Shown here piece after piece: positions 13,110-21,365 of a stretch of DNA of 64,000 nt. Made by a program: the position numbers and the translations under genes. The notes beneath the pieces were generated by a model. That model did no database searches. It was given only the letters and a program-made list of their open reading frames with translations, and was not told the origin of the DNA. This stretch comes from Chloroflexota bacterium (GTDB taxonomy: Bacteria; Chloroflexota; Anaerolineae; Anaerolineales; Villigracilaceae): positions 124,001-188,000 of the forward strand of contig JAIOOU010000015.1 in the NCBI GenBank assembly GCA_021414245.1, written 5' to 3'. How positions within the stretch are numbered: the first letter of the stretch is position 1; each line of letters starts with the position of its first letter.

Positions 13110-14825
13110 GTGAAAAGAAACATTTCTGTTTTGCTTTCGCTGATCGTGCTGGCGGGCCTGATGCTTGCAGCCTGCGGCACCCCGGCGACCGAAGCGCCTG
13201 CCGCTGCCACGGAAGCACCCGCGGCGACCGAAGCGCCTGCCGCCTATGAAGGCATGAAGGTTGAAGCCGCCAGCTGCGATTACGGCGGTGAATTCAAATC
13301 CATCGAAGCGGTAGATGCGTCGACCGTCAAGATCACTCTCTGTGTGCCTGACCCGGCCTTCCCCTCGAAGATCGCCTTTACATCCTTTGCGGTTCAGCCT
13401 GCTGAATACCTTGAATCCACTGGTGGAAACGGTGATTTGCTCGAGAAACCGATCGGCACCGGCCCCTACATGGTCGATTCCTGGGTTCGTGGTGACCAAT
13501 TGATCTTAACCGCCAACCCCAACTATTGGGGCGAGAAGCCCGCTGACAGCACCCTGGTCTTCAAGTGGAGCACCGAGTCTGCCCAGCGCCTGCTCGAACT
13601 TCAATCCGGCACCGTCGATGGTATCGACAACGTCGGCCCCGATGATTTCGCGACCGTTCAGGGCGATTCAAACCTGGCACTTTATACACGCCCGGCCCTT
13701 AACATCATGTACATCGGTTTCAACAACAATCCGCAGGTCGAAGGCTTTGACAACACCAAGAATCCTTTGGCAAACGAAAAAGTACGCCAGGCCATTGCCA
13801 TGGGTATTGACCGCCAGCGCATCGTAGATAACTTCTACCCGGCCGGCTCCGAAGTGGCAGATTACTTCACCCCCTGCGCCATCCCGAACGGTTGTATTGG
13901 CGACAAGTGGTACGGTTTTGACGCCGCTGCCGCAAAAGCTCTTCTCACCGAAGCCGGTTACCCGGATGGTTTCGAAACTGTTTTGAACTACCGCGATGTT
14001 GTTCGTGGTTACCTGCCCGACCCGAACGTGGTTGCCCAGGACCTGCAAGCTCAGTTGAAAGAGAACTTGAACATCACCCTTAAGATCGAAGTGATGGAAT
14101 CCGGTGCTTACCTTGCTGCCGCAGATGCCGGACAGTTACAGGGACTTTACATGCTGGGTTGGGGTGCTGACTATCCTGATCAGACCAACTTCCTCGGCTA
14201 TCACTTTGGTGCCGGCGCTTCCAAGCAGTTCGGTGATAAATTCGACGACATCACCAGCGCATTGGATAGCGGCGCCCAATTGGCCTCCGACGCCGAGCGC
14301 GCTCCGTTCTACGAAGCCGCCAACAACGCGATTCGCACCCATGTACCCATGATCCCTGTGGCCCATGGCGGTTCCGCAGTTGCCTTCAAAGCTTCAGTAA
14401 CCGGTGCTCATGCCAGCCCGCTTGGCAATGAGAACTTCTCCGTCATGTCCAATGGTGGCGACACCTTCGTCTGGATGCAGAACGCCGAACCGATTTCCCT
14501 GTACTGTGCTGACGAAACCGATGGTGAGTCACTCCGTGCCTGTGAAGCGGTTACTCAGTCCCTGCTTGGCTATGAAACCGGTGGTACCGCGGTCGAACCT
14601 GTTTTGGCTGAATCCTATGAAGCCAGCGCAGACCTGACCGAGTGGACTTTCCACCTTCGCCCGGGCGTCCTCTTCTCAGACGGCTCCACGCTGGATGCGA
14701 ATGACGTGGTTACCTCGCTTTCCGTCCAATGGGATGCGGCGAATCCTCTTCACACCGGCAATACAGGTGCGTTCTCCTACTGGAGCGGCCTCTTCGGTGC
14801 ATTCCTGAATGCTCCTGCCCAGTAA
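13110..14825 (+). CDS. Family 5 solute-binding lipoprotein, circularly permuted
   Basis: A 571-aa extracytoplasmic binding protein of the peptide/nickel (DppA/OppA) family, GTG start with strong SD. Residues 1-22 are a lipoprotein signal (LMLAAC, C22), followed by a Thr/Glu/Ala/Pro linker to about 46. The mature domain begins in the middle of the usual fold: FKSIEAVDASTVKITL matches DppA about residue 140 onward, then IGTGPYMVDSW, NPNYWGEKP, VRQAIAMGIDR. The usual C-terminus (AHASPLGNENFSV) ends near 446 and is joined directly to what is normally the mature N-terminus (GDTFVWMQNAEPISL, 450 on), including LAESYEASADLTEWTFHLRP and DANDVV, up to the end. All parts are present once, in rotated order. 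It presumably feeds the two downstream permeases. Confidence 0.9.
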   Translation: MKRNISVLLSLIVLAGLMLAACGTPATEAPAAATEAPAATEAPAAYEGMKVEAASCDYGGEFKSIEAVDASTVKITLCVPDPAFPSKIAFTSFAVQPAEYLESTGGNGDLLEKPIGTGPYMVDSWVRGDQLILTANPNYWGEKPADSTLVFKWSTESAQRLLELQSGTVDGIDNVGPDDFATVQGDSNLALYTRPALNIMYIGFNNNPQVEGFDNTKNPLANEKVRQAIAMGIDRQRIVDNFYPAGSEVADYFTPCAIPNGCIGDKWYGFDAAAAKALLTEAGYPDGFETVLNYRDVVRGYLPDPNVVAQDLQAQLKENLNITLKIEVMESGAYLAAADAGQLQGLYMLGWGADYPDQTNFLGYHFGAGASKQFGDKFDDITSALDSGAQLASDAERAPFYEAANNAIRTHVPMIPVAHGGSAVAFKASVTGAHASPLGNENFSVMSNGGDTFVWMQNAEPISLYCADETDGESLRACEAVTQSLLGYETGGTAVEPVLAESYEASADLTEWTFHLRPGVLFSDGSTLDANDVVTSLSVQWDAANPLHTGNTGAFSYWSGLFGAFLNAPAQ

Positions 14826-14852: not shown

Positions 14853-14883
14853 AGCCCCCCGCCAGGAGTCCTGGCGGGGGGCT
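14853..14883 (+). terminator. Strong intra-operon hairpin between binding protein and permease
   Basis: A 14-bp GC-rich perfect stem with a 3-nt loop is followed by C-rich sequence instead of T. It is more likely an mRNA-stabilising or partial termination element that lowers permease expression than a full terminator. Confidence 0.65.
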
Positions 14884-14895
14884 CCCCCAATTGCC

Positions 14896-15975
14896 ATGAC
14901 CACTTATATTATTCGACGACTTCTGCTCAGTATTCCGGTGCTATTTGGCATTTTATTTGCAACCTTTGCACTGGCTCGCTTGATTCCGGGCGATCCGTGC
15001 CGTGCCATGCTTGGAGAGAAAGCCACCAAAGTGGTCTGTGATGAGTTCAACCATCGTCACGGGCTGGACAGGCCAATAGCAATTCAGTTTGGAGTCTATG
15101 TAAATGAAATTGCTCATGGCGAATTTGGAAATTCCTTCCGCTATTCCAAACCCATCACTGAATTATTGATGGAGCGCCTGCCCATCACTGTTGAATTAAG
15201 TTTTGCGGCATTATTCGTCAGTATCGTTATCGGGATTCCATTGGGGGTGATCTCGGCAGTCCGCCATAATTCATGGGTGGACGTGGTCACCATGATGTGG
15301 GCCAATGTGGGTGTGTCCATGCCGGTTTTCTGGCTGGGATTAATGCTTGCGTATGTTTTTGCGCTCACATTAAAAGATACTCCGTTCCAACTGCCGCCCT
15401 CCGGCCGCCTCAGTTCCGGAGTTACCACGATTCCTTTTTTTGTGGCCTGGGGACTGCAAATGGGCAAGGATTCTTTTGGCTATAATATCTTCGATTTCTT
15501 CAGCCGGATGAATATTTTCAATTCCGTGCTCACCGCAGACTGGGTGGTGCTCAAGGATGCGATCAAACATTTAATTCTTCCCGCATTTGCACTCAGCACG
15601 ATTCCCATGGCCCTGATTGCACGCATGACCCGCTCCGCCATGCTGGAAGTACTCGGACAGGATTACATTCGCACAGCGCGCGCCAAAGGACTGGCGCGGC
15701 GTGCGGTTATATTGAAACACGCATTTCGCAATGCCCTGCTGCCTCTCGCAACCGTGATCGGATTATCCCTGGGCGGCCTGCTGGGCGGCGCCGTGCTCAC
15801 GGAAACCGTGTTCAATTTATCCGGTGTCGGCCGCATTCTTTACGATGGCATCACGGCCCGTGATTATGGTATTGTGCAGGGTTTCACGGTGGTAATCGCA
15901 ATATTCTTTGTGGTATTAAATTTGATCGTGGATATCTCTTATGCTTATCTCGATCCGCGCATCCGCCTTAACTAG
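14896..15975 (+). CDS. ABC transporter permease (DppB-like)
   Basis: This 359-aa inner-membrane permease of the dipeptide/nickel import family starts MTTYIIRRLLLSIPVLFGIL, the standard DppB N-terminus, with the RLIPGDPC loop and six predicted TM helices. The EAA loop that docks on the ATPase is seen as YIRTARAKGLARRAVILKHA near residues 257-276. The start at 14896 follows the hairpin by 12 nt and lacks an evident SD. It is somewhat longer than DppB because of a 50-residue insertion (GRLSSGVTTIPFF and following) between TM helices. It pairs with the next gene; ATP-binding subunits are not in the window. Confidence 0.93.
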   Translation: MTTYIIRRLLLSIPVLFGILFATFALARLIPGDPCRAMLGEKATKVVCDEFNHRHGLDRPIAIQFGVYVNEIAHGEFGNSFRYSKPITELLMERLPITVELSFAALFVSIVIGIPLGVISAVRHNSWVDVVTMMWANVGVSMPVFWLGLMLAYVFALTLKDTPFQLPPSGRLSSGVTTIPFFVAWGLQMGKDSFGYNIFDFFSRMNIFNSVLTADWVVLKDAIKHLILPAFALSTIPMALIARMTRSAMLEVLGQDYIRTARAKGLARRAVILKHAFRNALLPLATVIGLSLGGLLGGAVLTETVFNLSGVGRILYDGITARDYGIVQGFTVVIAIFFVVLNLIVDISYAYLDPRIRLN

Positions 15976-15983
15976 GACCTGAC

Positions 15984-16943
15984 ATGGCCTCCCAAACTGT
16001 CCCCCCCCTGAAACTGGACGCTCCCGAAGCCCTTTCCCTTGATTCGGTCAGTCTCTGGCAGATCACCCGGCGACGGCTCCTCCGTCGCAAATCATCCATC
16101 GTTGGAATGGTAATTCTGGCGATTTTGATCGTGATCGCCCTGACGGCACAATGGATCGCGCCTTACAGTCCAACGCTTTCCATGCTGGACACAACACCAG
16201 CGCAGAATATTCAAAAGCGTTCGCCTCCCTGCATTCACATGTTCGGATGCGCACAGGACCAGCCTGAACATTTCATGGGCACCGACGGAAACCTGCGCGA
16301 TGAGTTCAGCCGCATGCTTTATGGCGCCCGCTTGAGTTTAATGATCGGTCTTTCCACGGTTTCATTTGCCATTGTCATAGGAACCATTCTGGGCGCACTG
16401 GCCGGGTATTTTGGGGGCTGGGTCGATAATGCCATCATGCGTATCATGGATGTGCTGCTGGCTTTTCCATCCCTGCTGCTGGCGATTGCCATTGTTACGG
16501 TTCTTGGTCCCGGATTGATCAATGCCCTGCTTGCGATCGGCATCGTCTCCATTCCAGCTTATGCACGTGTAGTTCGCGGCAGTGTACTCTCCGTCCGCGA
16601 AATGGATTATGTCTCTGCATCCCGTGCTTTGGGCGGCAACACCTACGAAATATTGTTCAAACGCATTCTACCAAATGCATTGACACCGTTAATCGTACAA
16701 GGCACGCTGGGGATTGCCTCGGCAATCCTGGATGCGGCGGCCCTGTCCTTTCTTGGTCTCGGAGCCCAGCCCCCAACACCGGAATGGGGAGCCATGCTCG
16801 GCTCGGAACGCAACCAGGTCTTCACTGCCCCACACCTGGTCTTTTATCCCGGTCTTGCGATCATGCTGACCGTGCTGGCTTTCAATCTGCTAGGGGATGG
16901 TCTGCGCGACGCACTCGACCCGAGACTTGCCCACATAAGTTAA
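15984..16943 (+). CDS. ABC transporter permease (DppC-like)
   Basis: This 319-aa second permease of the same importer begins 8 nt after the first. A 35-residue cytoplasmic N-terminus (SLWQITRRRLLRRKSSIVG) precedes TM1. The periplasmic loop has four prolines and two Cys (CIHMFGCAQ). GTDGNLRDEFSRMLYGARLSL is the DppC signature, and the EAA loop reads YVSASRALGGNTYEILFKRI. It likely forms the membrane heterodimer with the DppB-like protein. A bidirectional terminator follows immediately. Substrate (peptide, nickel or sugar oligomer) cannot be decided. Confidence 0.93.
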   Translation: MASQTVPPLKLDAPEALSLDSVSLWQITRRRLLRRKSSIVGMVILAILIVIALTAQWIAPYSPTLSMLDTTPAQNIQKRSPPCIHMFGCAQDQPEHFMGTDGNLRDEFSRMLYGARLSLMIGLSTVSFAIVIGTILGALAGYFGGWVDNAIMRIMDVLLAFPSLLLAIAIVTVLGPGLINALLAIGIVSIPAYARVVRGSVLSVREMDYVSASRALGGNTYEILFKRILPNALTPLIVQGTLGIASAILDAAALSFLGLGAQPPTPEWGAMLGSERNQVFTAPHLVFYPGLAIMLTVLAFNLLGDGLRDALDPRLAHIS

Positions 16944-19196: not shown

Positions 19197-21365
19197 ATGA
19201 ATTACAAGAAAATACTCGTTTTGCTGGGTGTAATGATCGTCGTCGGCGCTGTTTTGGCGGCCTGCGGCGGTGCATCCAGCCCCACTTCGGCTGCGACAGA
19301 AGCCCCTGTTGCGCCGATTCCAGATACCCCTTATCTGGCTGACTGGCAAGGCTCTGCCCACGCCAATGTTGCGGATGAACCCTTCCGCCATTGGGATGAT
19401 GCCACTGCCAATCCCGACGGTGTGCCCACCACCTGCGCCAAGTGCCACACCAGCGCTGGCTACCAGGATTTCCTCGGCCTGGACGGCTCCGAGGCCGGCA
19501 AGGTTGACGCCGCAGTACCCGCTGATCATTCACAGGGTATTCAATGCGTAGCCTGCCATAATGCCGGCACGATTTCCAAGACCACCGTCACATTCCCCTC
19601 CGGTGTCACCATCACCGCTGGTGATGATGTTCGTTGTATGGAATGCCACCAGGGTCGTGAATCCAAAGTCAGCATTGACAAAGCCATCGCATTATTTGGC
19701 GAAAATGTCGACCTCGACAAGGTGCCCGCGCCCGTCAAAGATGACGCCGGCAAGGATGTCACCCTTGGATTCAAGAATGTTCACTACTACGCCGCAGCCG
19801 CCACACTTTATGGCAGCATGACCCACGGCGGTTACGAATATGACGGCAACACGTACGACTCCAAGAATACCCACACTGAAGGCTACGATTCCTGCACAGG
19901 CTGCCACAATCCCCACACCCTCAAGGTGAAGGTCGATCAGTGCGCGAACTGCCATGAAGGCGTCGCGACCGTGGATGATCTCAAGAACATCCGCATGGTT
20001 TCCTCCGCCAAAGATTATGATGGCGATGGAAACTTGGAAGAAGGCATTTCCTTCGAGATCCAGGGTCTGCAGGAAATCCTGCTCGCCCAGATCCAAACTT
20101 ATGCCAAGGATACCGCTGGCGCTGAAATCAACTACGACGCTGCCACCTATCCGTATTTCATGGGCACAGACGGCAAGGCTTATCCGAACTGGACACCCCG
20201 CCTGCTCAAGGCCGCCTACAACTACCAGGTTTCCATGAAGGATCCCGGTGCGTTCGCCCACGGCCCCAAGTACATCATCGAATTACTCTTCGACTCGATC
20301 GCCGACCTCGGCGGTGACACCAGCAAACTGGCCCGCACTGATGCAGGTCACTTCGCCGGCAACACCATGCCCTTCCGCGATTGGGACCTCAACGCAGACG
20401 GTTCTCCAAACTATGTTGTACCGTTCGCCTGCGTGAAGTGCCACACCGCACAGGGTCTGCCCACCTTCCTTAAGGACGGCGGCACAACCGTGATCACCCC
20501 CAACGGCACGACCTCCATTACCGGTCTGGCCAATATGCCCTCCAGCAATGGCTATATGTGCTCCACCTGCCACGACGAAGCCAATTGGCCCAACCGCTAT
20601 GCGGTTGCCTCCGTGGTCTTCCCAAGCGGCAAGACCGTAAGCCTGGGCGGCAAGGATGCCGATGGCAAATTCGTTGCTGACGACTCCAACCTTTGCATCT
20701 CCTGCCATCAAGGCCGTGAATCCACTGCCAGTATGAACGCAGCGCTCAAGGGCAAGGATGCCGATGCAGTCGACCCGGCTGTGCGCTTCAAGAACATCCA
20801 TTATTTCGCCGCAGGTGCAACCCTCTTCGGCGGGGATGTCCAGGGTGCCTACCAGTATGACGGCAAGCAATACGTCGGCCAGAACATGCACGCCAGCGCC
20901 GATGGCAAGATGAACAAGTGCAAGGACTGCCATGATGTCCATGCCCTTGAACCGAAGCTGGAAGCCTGCCAGACCTGCCACGACACCACAGACCCGACAA
21001 CCATTCGTGAAACTGATGTTGACTATGATGGCGACGGCGATGTAACCGAAGGCGTCAAGGGTGAAGTCGATACCCTCGCAGAAGCCCTCTATGCCCAGAT
21101 GCAGACCTACGCAGCCACCCACGGTGGCCCGATCGAATATAAGGGCGATGCCTACCCATACTTCTATGGTGCCGATGGCAAATCCTATGCCACCTGGACT
21201 CCAAAACTGGTCAAGGCCGCATTCAACTATCAATACAGCCAGAAGGACCCCGGCGTTTACGTTCACAACAACAAGTACATCATCCAGATCATGATCGACT
21301 CGATCCAGGATCTTGGTGGTGACGTGAGCAAGTACACCCGCCCGGAAGTTCCCGCAGCCAAGTAA
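19197..21365 (+). CDS. Decahaem c-type cytochrome lipoprotein with internal duplication
   Basis: The protein has 722 aa. A lipoprotein signal is present (VLAAC, lipidated C23). Ten CxxCH haem motifs occur in two sets of five: CAKCH, CVACH, CMECH, CTGCH, CANCH and CVKCH, CSTCH, CISCH, CKDCH, CQTCH. Residues from about 51 and from about 381 align over their whole length, so the protein is a tandem duplication of a pentahaem unit of about 330 aa. Each half also has an acidic Ca-binding-like loop (DYDGDGNLEEG; DYDGDGDVTEG) and a YPYF-x4-GK-x-Y-x2-WTP segment. It is anchored outside the membrane and probably carries electrons. Downstream genes supply further cytochromes and a cytochrome b, but a terminator and a new promoter lie between. 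Confidence 0.92.
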   Translation: MNYKKILVLLGVMIVVGAVLAACGGASSPTSAATEAPVAPIPDTPYLADWQGSAHANVADEPFRHWDDATANPDGVPTTCAKCHTSAGYQDFLGLDGSEAGKVDAAVPADHSQGIQCVACHNAGTISKTTVTFPSGVTITAGDDVRCMECHQGRESKVSIDKAIALFGENVDLDKVPAPVKDDAGKDVTLGFKNVHYYAAAATLYGSMTHGGYEYDGNTYDSKNTHTEGYDSCTGCHNPHTLKVKVDQCANCHEGVATVDDLKNIRMVSSAKDYDGDGNLEEGISFEIQGLQEILLAQIQTYAKDTAGAEINYDAATYPYFMGTDGKAYPNWTPRLLKAAYNYQVSMKDPGAFAHGPKYIIELLFDSIADLGGDTSKLARTDAGHFAGNTMPFRDWDLNADGSPNYVVPFACVKCHTAQGLPTFLKDGGTTVITPNGTTSITGLANMPSSNGYMCSTCHDEANWPNRYAVASVVFPSGKTVSLGGKDADGKFVADDSNLCISCHQGRESTASMNAALKGKDADAVDPAVRFKNIHYFAAGATLFGGDVQGAYQYDGKQYVGQNMHASADGKMNKCKDCHDVHALEPKLEACQTCHDTTDPTTIRETDVDYDGDGDVTEGVKGEVDTLAEALYAQMQTYAATHGGPIEYKGDAYPYFYGADGKSYATWTPKLVKAAFNYQYSQKDPGVYVHNNKYIIQIMIDSIQDLGGDVSKYTRPEVPAAK

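Follow-up and report, generated by a model that had tools for sequence, protein, structure and literature searches.

A probable natural circular permutant of the DppA-type peptide-binding lipoproteins in Chloroflexota

Among the ABC binding proteins a naturally occurring circular permutant is known in Tp0684 (MglB-2) of Treponema pallidum, a crystallised type I glucose-binding protein designated 'Type Ic / Cluster Bc', whose relatives are described in other treponemes and in Gram-positive bacteria (PMC4990184). Tethering was raised by its authors as a possible driver of the new topology (PMC4990184). The open-access literature searched holds one clear natural permutant among the ABC binding proteins; here three cut points in one family are presented. 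For the family 5 protein DppA of Escherichia coli it is described that the dipeptide is held by R383 at its carboxyl end and by D436 at its amino end, and that both residues are contacted in the complex by E41 and R42 of the DppB scoop loop (PMC12136057).

The window, a 64,000-nucleotide stretch of DNA from a Chloroflexota bacterium, contains a gene which very probably encodes a genuine, functional and natural circular permutant of the DppA type (family 5, cluster C), acting as peptide receptor for the adjacent DppB/DppC. In common with Tp0684 it shows a natural permutation of an ABC binding protein, a new N-terminus within the N-lobe and tethering as a lipoprotein (PMC4990184); the other permuted family 5 proteins reported here are also lipid-anchored, as predicted from their sequences. 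However, Tp0684 is a type I, cluster B protein for glucose (PMC4990184), and the family 5 matches of the window protein suggest a different fold class and a separate permutation event. With E. coli DppA it shares the parts of the fold, the ligand-binding Arg and Asp and the DppB/DppC partners with their scoop residues, whereas the swapped segments and a lipid anchor at new ends inside lobe I set it apart. The initial annotation held that no natural permutant has been described in this family. The open-access literature searched yielded no report of permutation in a family 5 binding protein; among binding proteins in general natural permutation is not new, as Tp0684, from another cluster, is permuted (PMC4990184). 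The finding also extends beyond the single gene and comprises a conserved clade, recurrent fusions and two further permuted types.

Segment order and predicted fold

The gene starts with GTG and is open over 571 codons (Table 1). Its product reaches 274.3 bits with the Pfam profile SBP_bac_5 (PF00496; cut-off 32.4) in two stretches and is a member of the family by sequence. Residues 59-371 correspond to profile positions 62-366 and are followed by a C-terminal stretch corresponding to positions 2-55, which was also recovered when the C-terminal 124 amino acids were searched alone (E 9.6e-16). The canonical order of the SBP_bac_5 segments is thus absent, and two half-models, A (residues 450-571) and B (residues 60-447), are read in the order B-A. 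The best PDB chain in a phmmer search, DppA 5f1q, is matched in the same swapped manner (chain 59-146 to residues 480-561, chain 153-533 to residues 63-447). In NCBIfam the highest-scoring entry is DppA_dipep, likewise hit in two stretches; the score of 184 bits lies below the cut-off of 1005, and by it the protein is a relative and not the equivalog. At the joint, DPLGKHHFENVS of the old C-terminal strand of E. coli DppA corresponds to SPLGNENFSVMS, and NGGDTFVWMQNAEPISLYC follows directly. The new ends fall at a single site, in the few residues that separate FEGM from ELISEVKKVDD in the alignment to E. coli DppA (precursor about 147-151). The swapped order of DppA/OppA segments proposed in the initial annotation is therefore confirmed by Pfam, PDB sequences and NCBIfam alike, and its further claim, that the old ends are joined within a few residues and each part occurs once, by the alignment and the half-model gaps. 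In profile searches proteins of this kind appear among the usual members of family 5, and their swapped order can easily escape notice.

Table 1 Features of the permuted receptor gene and the neighbouring permease genes (positions in the window)
Feature	Position	Strand	Basis or conservation
Substrate-binding lipoprotein of family 5 (DppA-like), circularly permuted, 571 aa	13110..14825	+	ORF, PDB-sequence and Pfam matches
Lipoprotein signal peptide to lipobox cysteine C22 (LAAC)	13110..13175	+	Sequence; C22 invariant in 27 aligned orthologues
Low-complexity linker, TEAPAA repeats, residues 23-55	13176..13274	+	Sequence; model pLDDT <50 at 21-43
C56, close to new N-terminus	13275..13277	+	Cys in 110/113, aligned column; presumed pair C78
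B part, residues 60-447: DppA from after precursor residue ~151 to usual C-terminus	13287..14450	+	PDB-sequence and Pfam matches, alignment
C78	13341..13343	+	Cys in 113/113 permuted; commonest canonical residues K, T, N
R299, equivalent of DppA R383 (dipeptide carboxylate)	14004..14006	+	R in 111/113 distinct permuted proteins
D354, equivalent of DppA D436 (dipeptide amino group)	14169..14171	+	D in 113/113 distinct permuted proteins
Junction of old C-terminus and old N-terminus, residues 448-449	14451..14456	+	Half-model gaps, alignment
A part, residues 450-571: usual opening segment of mature DppA fold	14457..14822	+	PDB-sequence and Pfam matches, alignment
C466	14505..14507	+	Presumed pair C478; both in 111/113, both missing in 2/113
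C478	14541..14543	+	Presumed pair C466
Strong hairpin separating receptor gene from permease gene	14853..14883	+	-33.4 kcal/mol, z -4.27
DppB-like permease (BPD_transp_1 + BPD_transp_1_N)	14896..15975	+	Pfam
E41-K42, DppB scoop loop (E. coli DppB: E41-R42)	15016..15021	+	Alignment
DppC-like permease (BPD_transp_1 + OppC_N)	15984..16943	+	Pfam

The initial annotation had named two incomplete domains, as opposed to one closed fold, as an outcome that would speak against a permutant. An AlphaFold2 model based on an alignment of 27 orthologues has a mean pLDDT of 85.9 and a pTM of 0.81, and values below 50 are confined to residues 1-3 and 21-43. The model accordingly predicts one confident fold, and two incomplete domains are unlikely. 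In sequential superposition residues 59-450 match 5f1q 149-536 (Z 28.8, rmsd 2.5, 381 aligned) and residues 58-449 match 1dpp (Z 28.4); the rows of the sequential aligner span 48-450, and the moved C-terminal segment of about 120 residues lies outside the alignment. The fold-search matches listed for the protein are family 5 proteins, in line with its sequence and Pfam matches.

C78, C466 and C478 are conserved among the permuted proteins, while in 21 canonical rows a cysteine is lacking or rare at the corresponding positions, and in the three of 113 proteins that have no aligned C56 a cysteine lies a few residues off (by eye). The pairs 256/262 and 503/514 are each present or absent together throughout the 113 permuted proteins. 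Since cysteine pairs are gained and lost together, disulfides 466-478, 256-262 and 503-514 are probable. A further disulfide, 56-78, may pin the new N-terminus.

Distribution and origin of the permuted clade

Looking for the same order in relatives had been suggested in the initial annotation, and the order is recurrent. In 31 of 61 related genomes (the window genome counted) 33 matches of the same order were found, with identities of 38-100%. A profile of 27 orthologues, applied to 301 genomes of the phylum, gave at least 39 matches with 477 bits or higher, in 38 genomes; because three to four candidates per genome were scored in the phylum searches for all three permuted types, the numbers from these are minimum values and a second copy may have been missed. 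All but one of the 39 extend into both halves, the exception being a 439-aa frame in G283 without the A part. A second class of 20 matches, at 306 bits or less, covers only the B part (about positions 69-456), and all 14 of the 20 that were retrieved have the canonical order.

When the fetched loci were scanned with the half-models, 127 ORFs of the order B-A (116 distinct sequences) and 23 with A before B were obtained; the latter include E. coli DppA and count one gene twice. The gap between the two half-model matches amounts to 3-6 residues in 124 of the 127. An origin by tandem duplication is plausible; an A-B-A ORF, as expected for an intermediate, was not found in the loci scanned.

Beyond these genomes, a scan of named genomes yielded 467 stretches encoding a relative. 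The titles of the best 80 of these 467 name Anaerolineae and unclassified Chloroflexota, Chloroflexales (Oscillochloris, Kouleothrix, ZM16-3), Ardenticatenia, Caldilineales, Promineifilum, Thermoflexia and two Actinomycetota bins. The phylum of one Actinomycetota bin has the permuted protein in 4 of 198 genomes, each time in the order B-A, and in a quick tree its sequences stand at two places within the Chloroflexota clade, which suggests transfer. The remaining phyla were sampled through plasmid and phage collections. Four of the 71 plasmid records with at least 80% cover were retrieved as candidate permutants (two from Deinococcus, one each from Paracoccus and Azospirillum) and rejected, as all four are canonical.

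A careful tree was built from 46 permuted and 25 canonical proteins with their parts reordered to the canonical arrangement. All permuted proteins fall on one side of one branch, with support 100/100 and in 200 of 200 sampled bootstrap trees, and a first tree with 64 permuted and 21 canonical rows agrees in setting the permuted set apart together. Support for the clade is 100 from the B part alone and 90 from the A part alone. As judged from these trees the permuted clade is of single origin. Its nearest canonical sister is L131/L134-L136 in the first tree; the careful tree differs and has a fork (92/92) holding L168/L169 together with L131/L134-L136/L170/L172.

Instead of a permutation, the C-terminal A segment could have come from another family 5 gene and been joined behind a truncated one, as was also considered for Tp0684 by its authors (PMC4990184). 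The nearest canonical neighbours of the clade do differ between the half trees, being the E. coli DppA branch for A and L168/L169 for B. However, the A-only tree has 121 columns (from a part of 122 residues) and is too short to resolve many forks; moreover both half trees group the permuted proteins together among DppA-like proteins, and the short gap at the joint is kept almost throughout. Such a chimera is considered unlikely.

According to the preferred reading, a single ancestral event in a DppA-like branch would have carried the first ~120 mature residues to the C-terminus and joined the old ends, and the new ends would have opened in the short loop ahead of the 'I.SVE.VD..TV' hairpin of lobe I. 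The lipoprotein signal and the linker would now anchor the permuted protein at its new N-terminus. That this is a natural permutant with its new termini inside lobe I, as the initial annotation proposed, is supported by the order, the conservation, the single origin and the model.

Peptide binding and permease partners

Both DppA residues that hold the dipeptide ends have their equivalents in the 571-aa protein, and the permeases expected of a DppA receptor, with the scoop residues in DppB, are encoded behind it (Table 1). The initial annotation had pointed to these adjacent DppB/DppC-like permeases, and it is borne out by Pfam as well as by the other permuted loci, 112 of 124 of which have DppB on the same strand within 1.5 kb downstream (some genes counted twice). 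Several of the 12 loci without a downstream DppB lie at contig ends or have short flanks, and in L149 DppB is on the opposite strand. Among 102 distinct DppB proteins encoded directly downstream, E41 is present in 101 and position 42 is K in 81 and R in 19. A hairpin between receptor and permease genes is expected if the receptor is made in excess of the permease, and the one found here may keep the amount of receptor above that of the permease.

A DppD/F-like gene follows within 6 kb in 16 of 124 loci, many of which are shorter than 6 kb. Eight oligo_HPY ATPases were found in the window genome, all on contigs other than that of the gene (on C1, C6 and C7, with the gene on C14), so that the transporter presumably shares ATPases encoded elsewhere. 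Also within the window, at 19197-21365 (+), a 722-aa lipoprotein with many CxxCH motifs is encoded, by eye a multihaem cytochrome c.

As ligand and docking residues are kept, the permuted protein is most likely a normal peptide receptor that serves the neighbouring DppB/DppC. Its fold is predicted to close as in DppA. Short peptides would be captured by their free ends via R299 and D354, to judge from the conserved residues, and would be handed to DppB/DppC, whose scoop loop keeps the partners of the DppA Arg and Asp. The benefit of the new ends may lie in another tether point and in a free N-terminus open to added receptor domains.

A folded protein without a role in transport, that is a sensor or scavenger which presents peptides or carries another receptor, would fit the absence of an adjacent ATPase gene in the window genome and the fusion to other binding domains in some members. 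This is quite improbable, as DppB adjoins the great majority of the permuted loci, DppD/F-like genes stand behind some of them, and the ligand and scoop residues are conserved. An assembly artefact or a decaying gene can practically be dismissed: the same order recurs in named records from a large number of projects as well as in two single-contig genomes (G025 and G264), and dN/dS is 0.05-0.22 in 14 of 15 comparisons of B, joint and A with five orthologues, the remaining one being dS-saturated. This recurrence in independent genomes, together with purifying selection on both halves and the joint, excludes chance and also misassembly, which the initial annotation had named as the finding that would overturn it.

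Receptor fusions and further permuted types

Nineteen of the 127 ORFs encode larger proteins in which the permuted domain forms the C-terminal module. By Pfam, the N-terminal domain is SBP_bac_3 in L069, L073, L075, L087, L090, L093, L094, L100, L111 and L147, Peripla_BP_6 in L076, L086, L148, L109 and one L103 gene, two stretches of Peripla_BP_6 in L095 and the other L103 gene, and SBP_bac_1 in L128; the frames of L086, L090 and L148 run off the contig at the 5' side. The L073 genome has one more SBP_bac_3 fusion, in a second and divergent gene outside the 19. One long frame, L129:2345-13885 (+), encodes 3847 aa in which a Bmp domain and another, partial piece of family 5 accompany the permuted domain; by eye, repeats and a C-terminal part resembling Peripla_BP_6 are visible in addition. 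The long N-terminal extension of L145 was rejected as a fusion, being open frame ahead of the likely start. On the first tree the fused state requires seven changes, several of them on weak forks.

The model of the L073 fusion is of moderate confidence (pLDDT 72.2, pTM 0.52). Its residues 50-303 superimpose on the amino-acid-binding protein 3vv5 (Z 27.5) and residues 314-705 on the family 5 protein 3m8u (Z 25.5). The gene order at L094 is LivK-LivH-LivM-LivG-LivF, fusion, DppB, DppC, HisQ, HisP; the L073 locus has the same set plus DppD- and DppF-like genes. Read from these gene neighbourhoods, one lipid anchor would bear receptors for two or three importers. Several receptor domains per chain are also described for GlnPQ (PMC8025302), but those are linked to their own permease, whereas here different SBP families are carried on one lipoprotein and the neighbouring genes encode different permeases. 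No description of mixed-family receptor fusions was found in the open-access literature searched. Two other genes were noticed: L219:9269-11545 (-) encodes a HisQ-like BPD_transp_1 amino acid permease behind a WD40 beta-propeller in a 759-aa frame at a composite importer locus, and L103:1240-2934 (+), with 565 aa and two HisJ-like stretches, adjoins the two fused permuted receptors.

A second permuted type is encoded in the window genome outside the window (G000:C6, L174:2971-5541 (+)). In the genome Pfam scan this 857-aa lipoprotein shows SBP_bac_5 positions 148-352 ahead of 25-141, and genes for two Dpp/Opp-type permeases and two such ATPases lie behind it. The closest PDB sequence, 7fi3, aligns with its parts exchanged (residues 116-288 to chain 388-570, 514-726 to chain 91-294). 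The cut is some 85 profile positions away from the one in the first type; by the profile positions it would fall between the lobes. The C-terminal stretch is Ig-like, with a FlgD_ig match below threshold. Including itself, 35 full-length matches occur in 28 of the 61 genomes, and at least 29 of the 301 phylum genomes have matches.

A screen of 15 phylum genomes with SBP_bac_5 gave eight swapped ORFs; the window genome has the first and second types, G025, which is a single-contig genome, all three, G067 the first, and G071 the first and third. The third type is represented in G025 by a 624-aa lipoprotein (L220:3016-4887 (+)) that begins with HPILSDLRVRQA and ends with GGTWEHIDIQLFIR, followed by two permeases and two ATPases, and in G071 by a protein of 655 aa (L221:2385-4349 (-)). 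In the G025 protein residues 56-219 match chain 246-395 and residues 426-583 match chain 61-215 of the best PDB relative, 4oet; the profile positions would place the cut inside lobe II. Both 7fi3 and 4oet are family 5 proteins of canonical order, whose two parts the second and third types match in opposite order. At least 28 matches spanning both parts of the third type were found in 26 of 301 phylum genomes (G025, G071 and 24 more), and 19 in 19 of the 61 relatives, the search of which did not find it in the window genome. The phylum also has canonical relatives of the third type, as in G335:C2, with query residues 318-619 at 220123-221022 and 63-317 at 221056-221817. Three other candidates were discarded: G070:C211 from the 15-genome screen is a frame truncated by the contig in which the B part is not followed by an A part, and thus no evidence of permutation, and G069:C4 and G061:C76 consist of two pieces each in canonical order.

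The different cut points argue for the independence of the second and third types. Taken together, it appears reasonably likely that permutation is recurrent in the tethered peptide receptors of Chloroflexota, with at least three independent, conserved cut points, each heading a Dpp/Opp-type operon, and that the new N-terminus of the first type repeatedly strings receptors for polar amino acids, branched-chain amino acids and sugars on one anchor for several importers. Conserved permuted clades with canonical relatives in the same phylum make the effect of new ends on a Venus flytrap testable with respect to stability, closure, docking and tether geometry. The question why tethered receptors should favour permutation becomes approachable as well, and natural permuted scaffolds are offered for biosensors.

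As a minor observation, three half-size proteins of 270-283 aa, two in the window genome and one in G025 (L175:1368-2177 (+), L176:1522-2370 (-) and L216:1533-2372 (+)), carry only profile positions 2-149 of canonical family 5 and end approximately where lobe II would begin.
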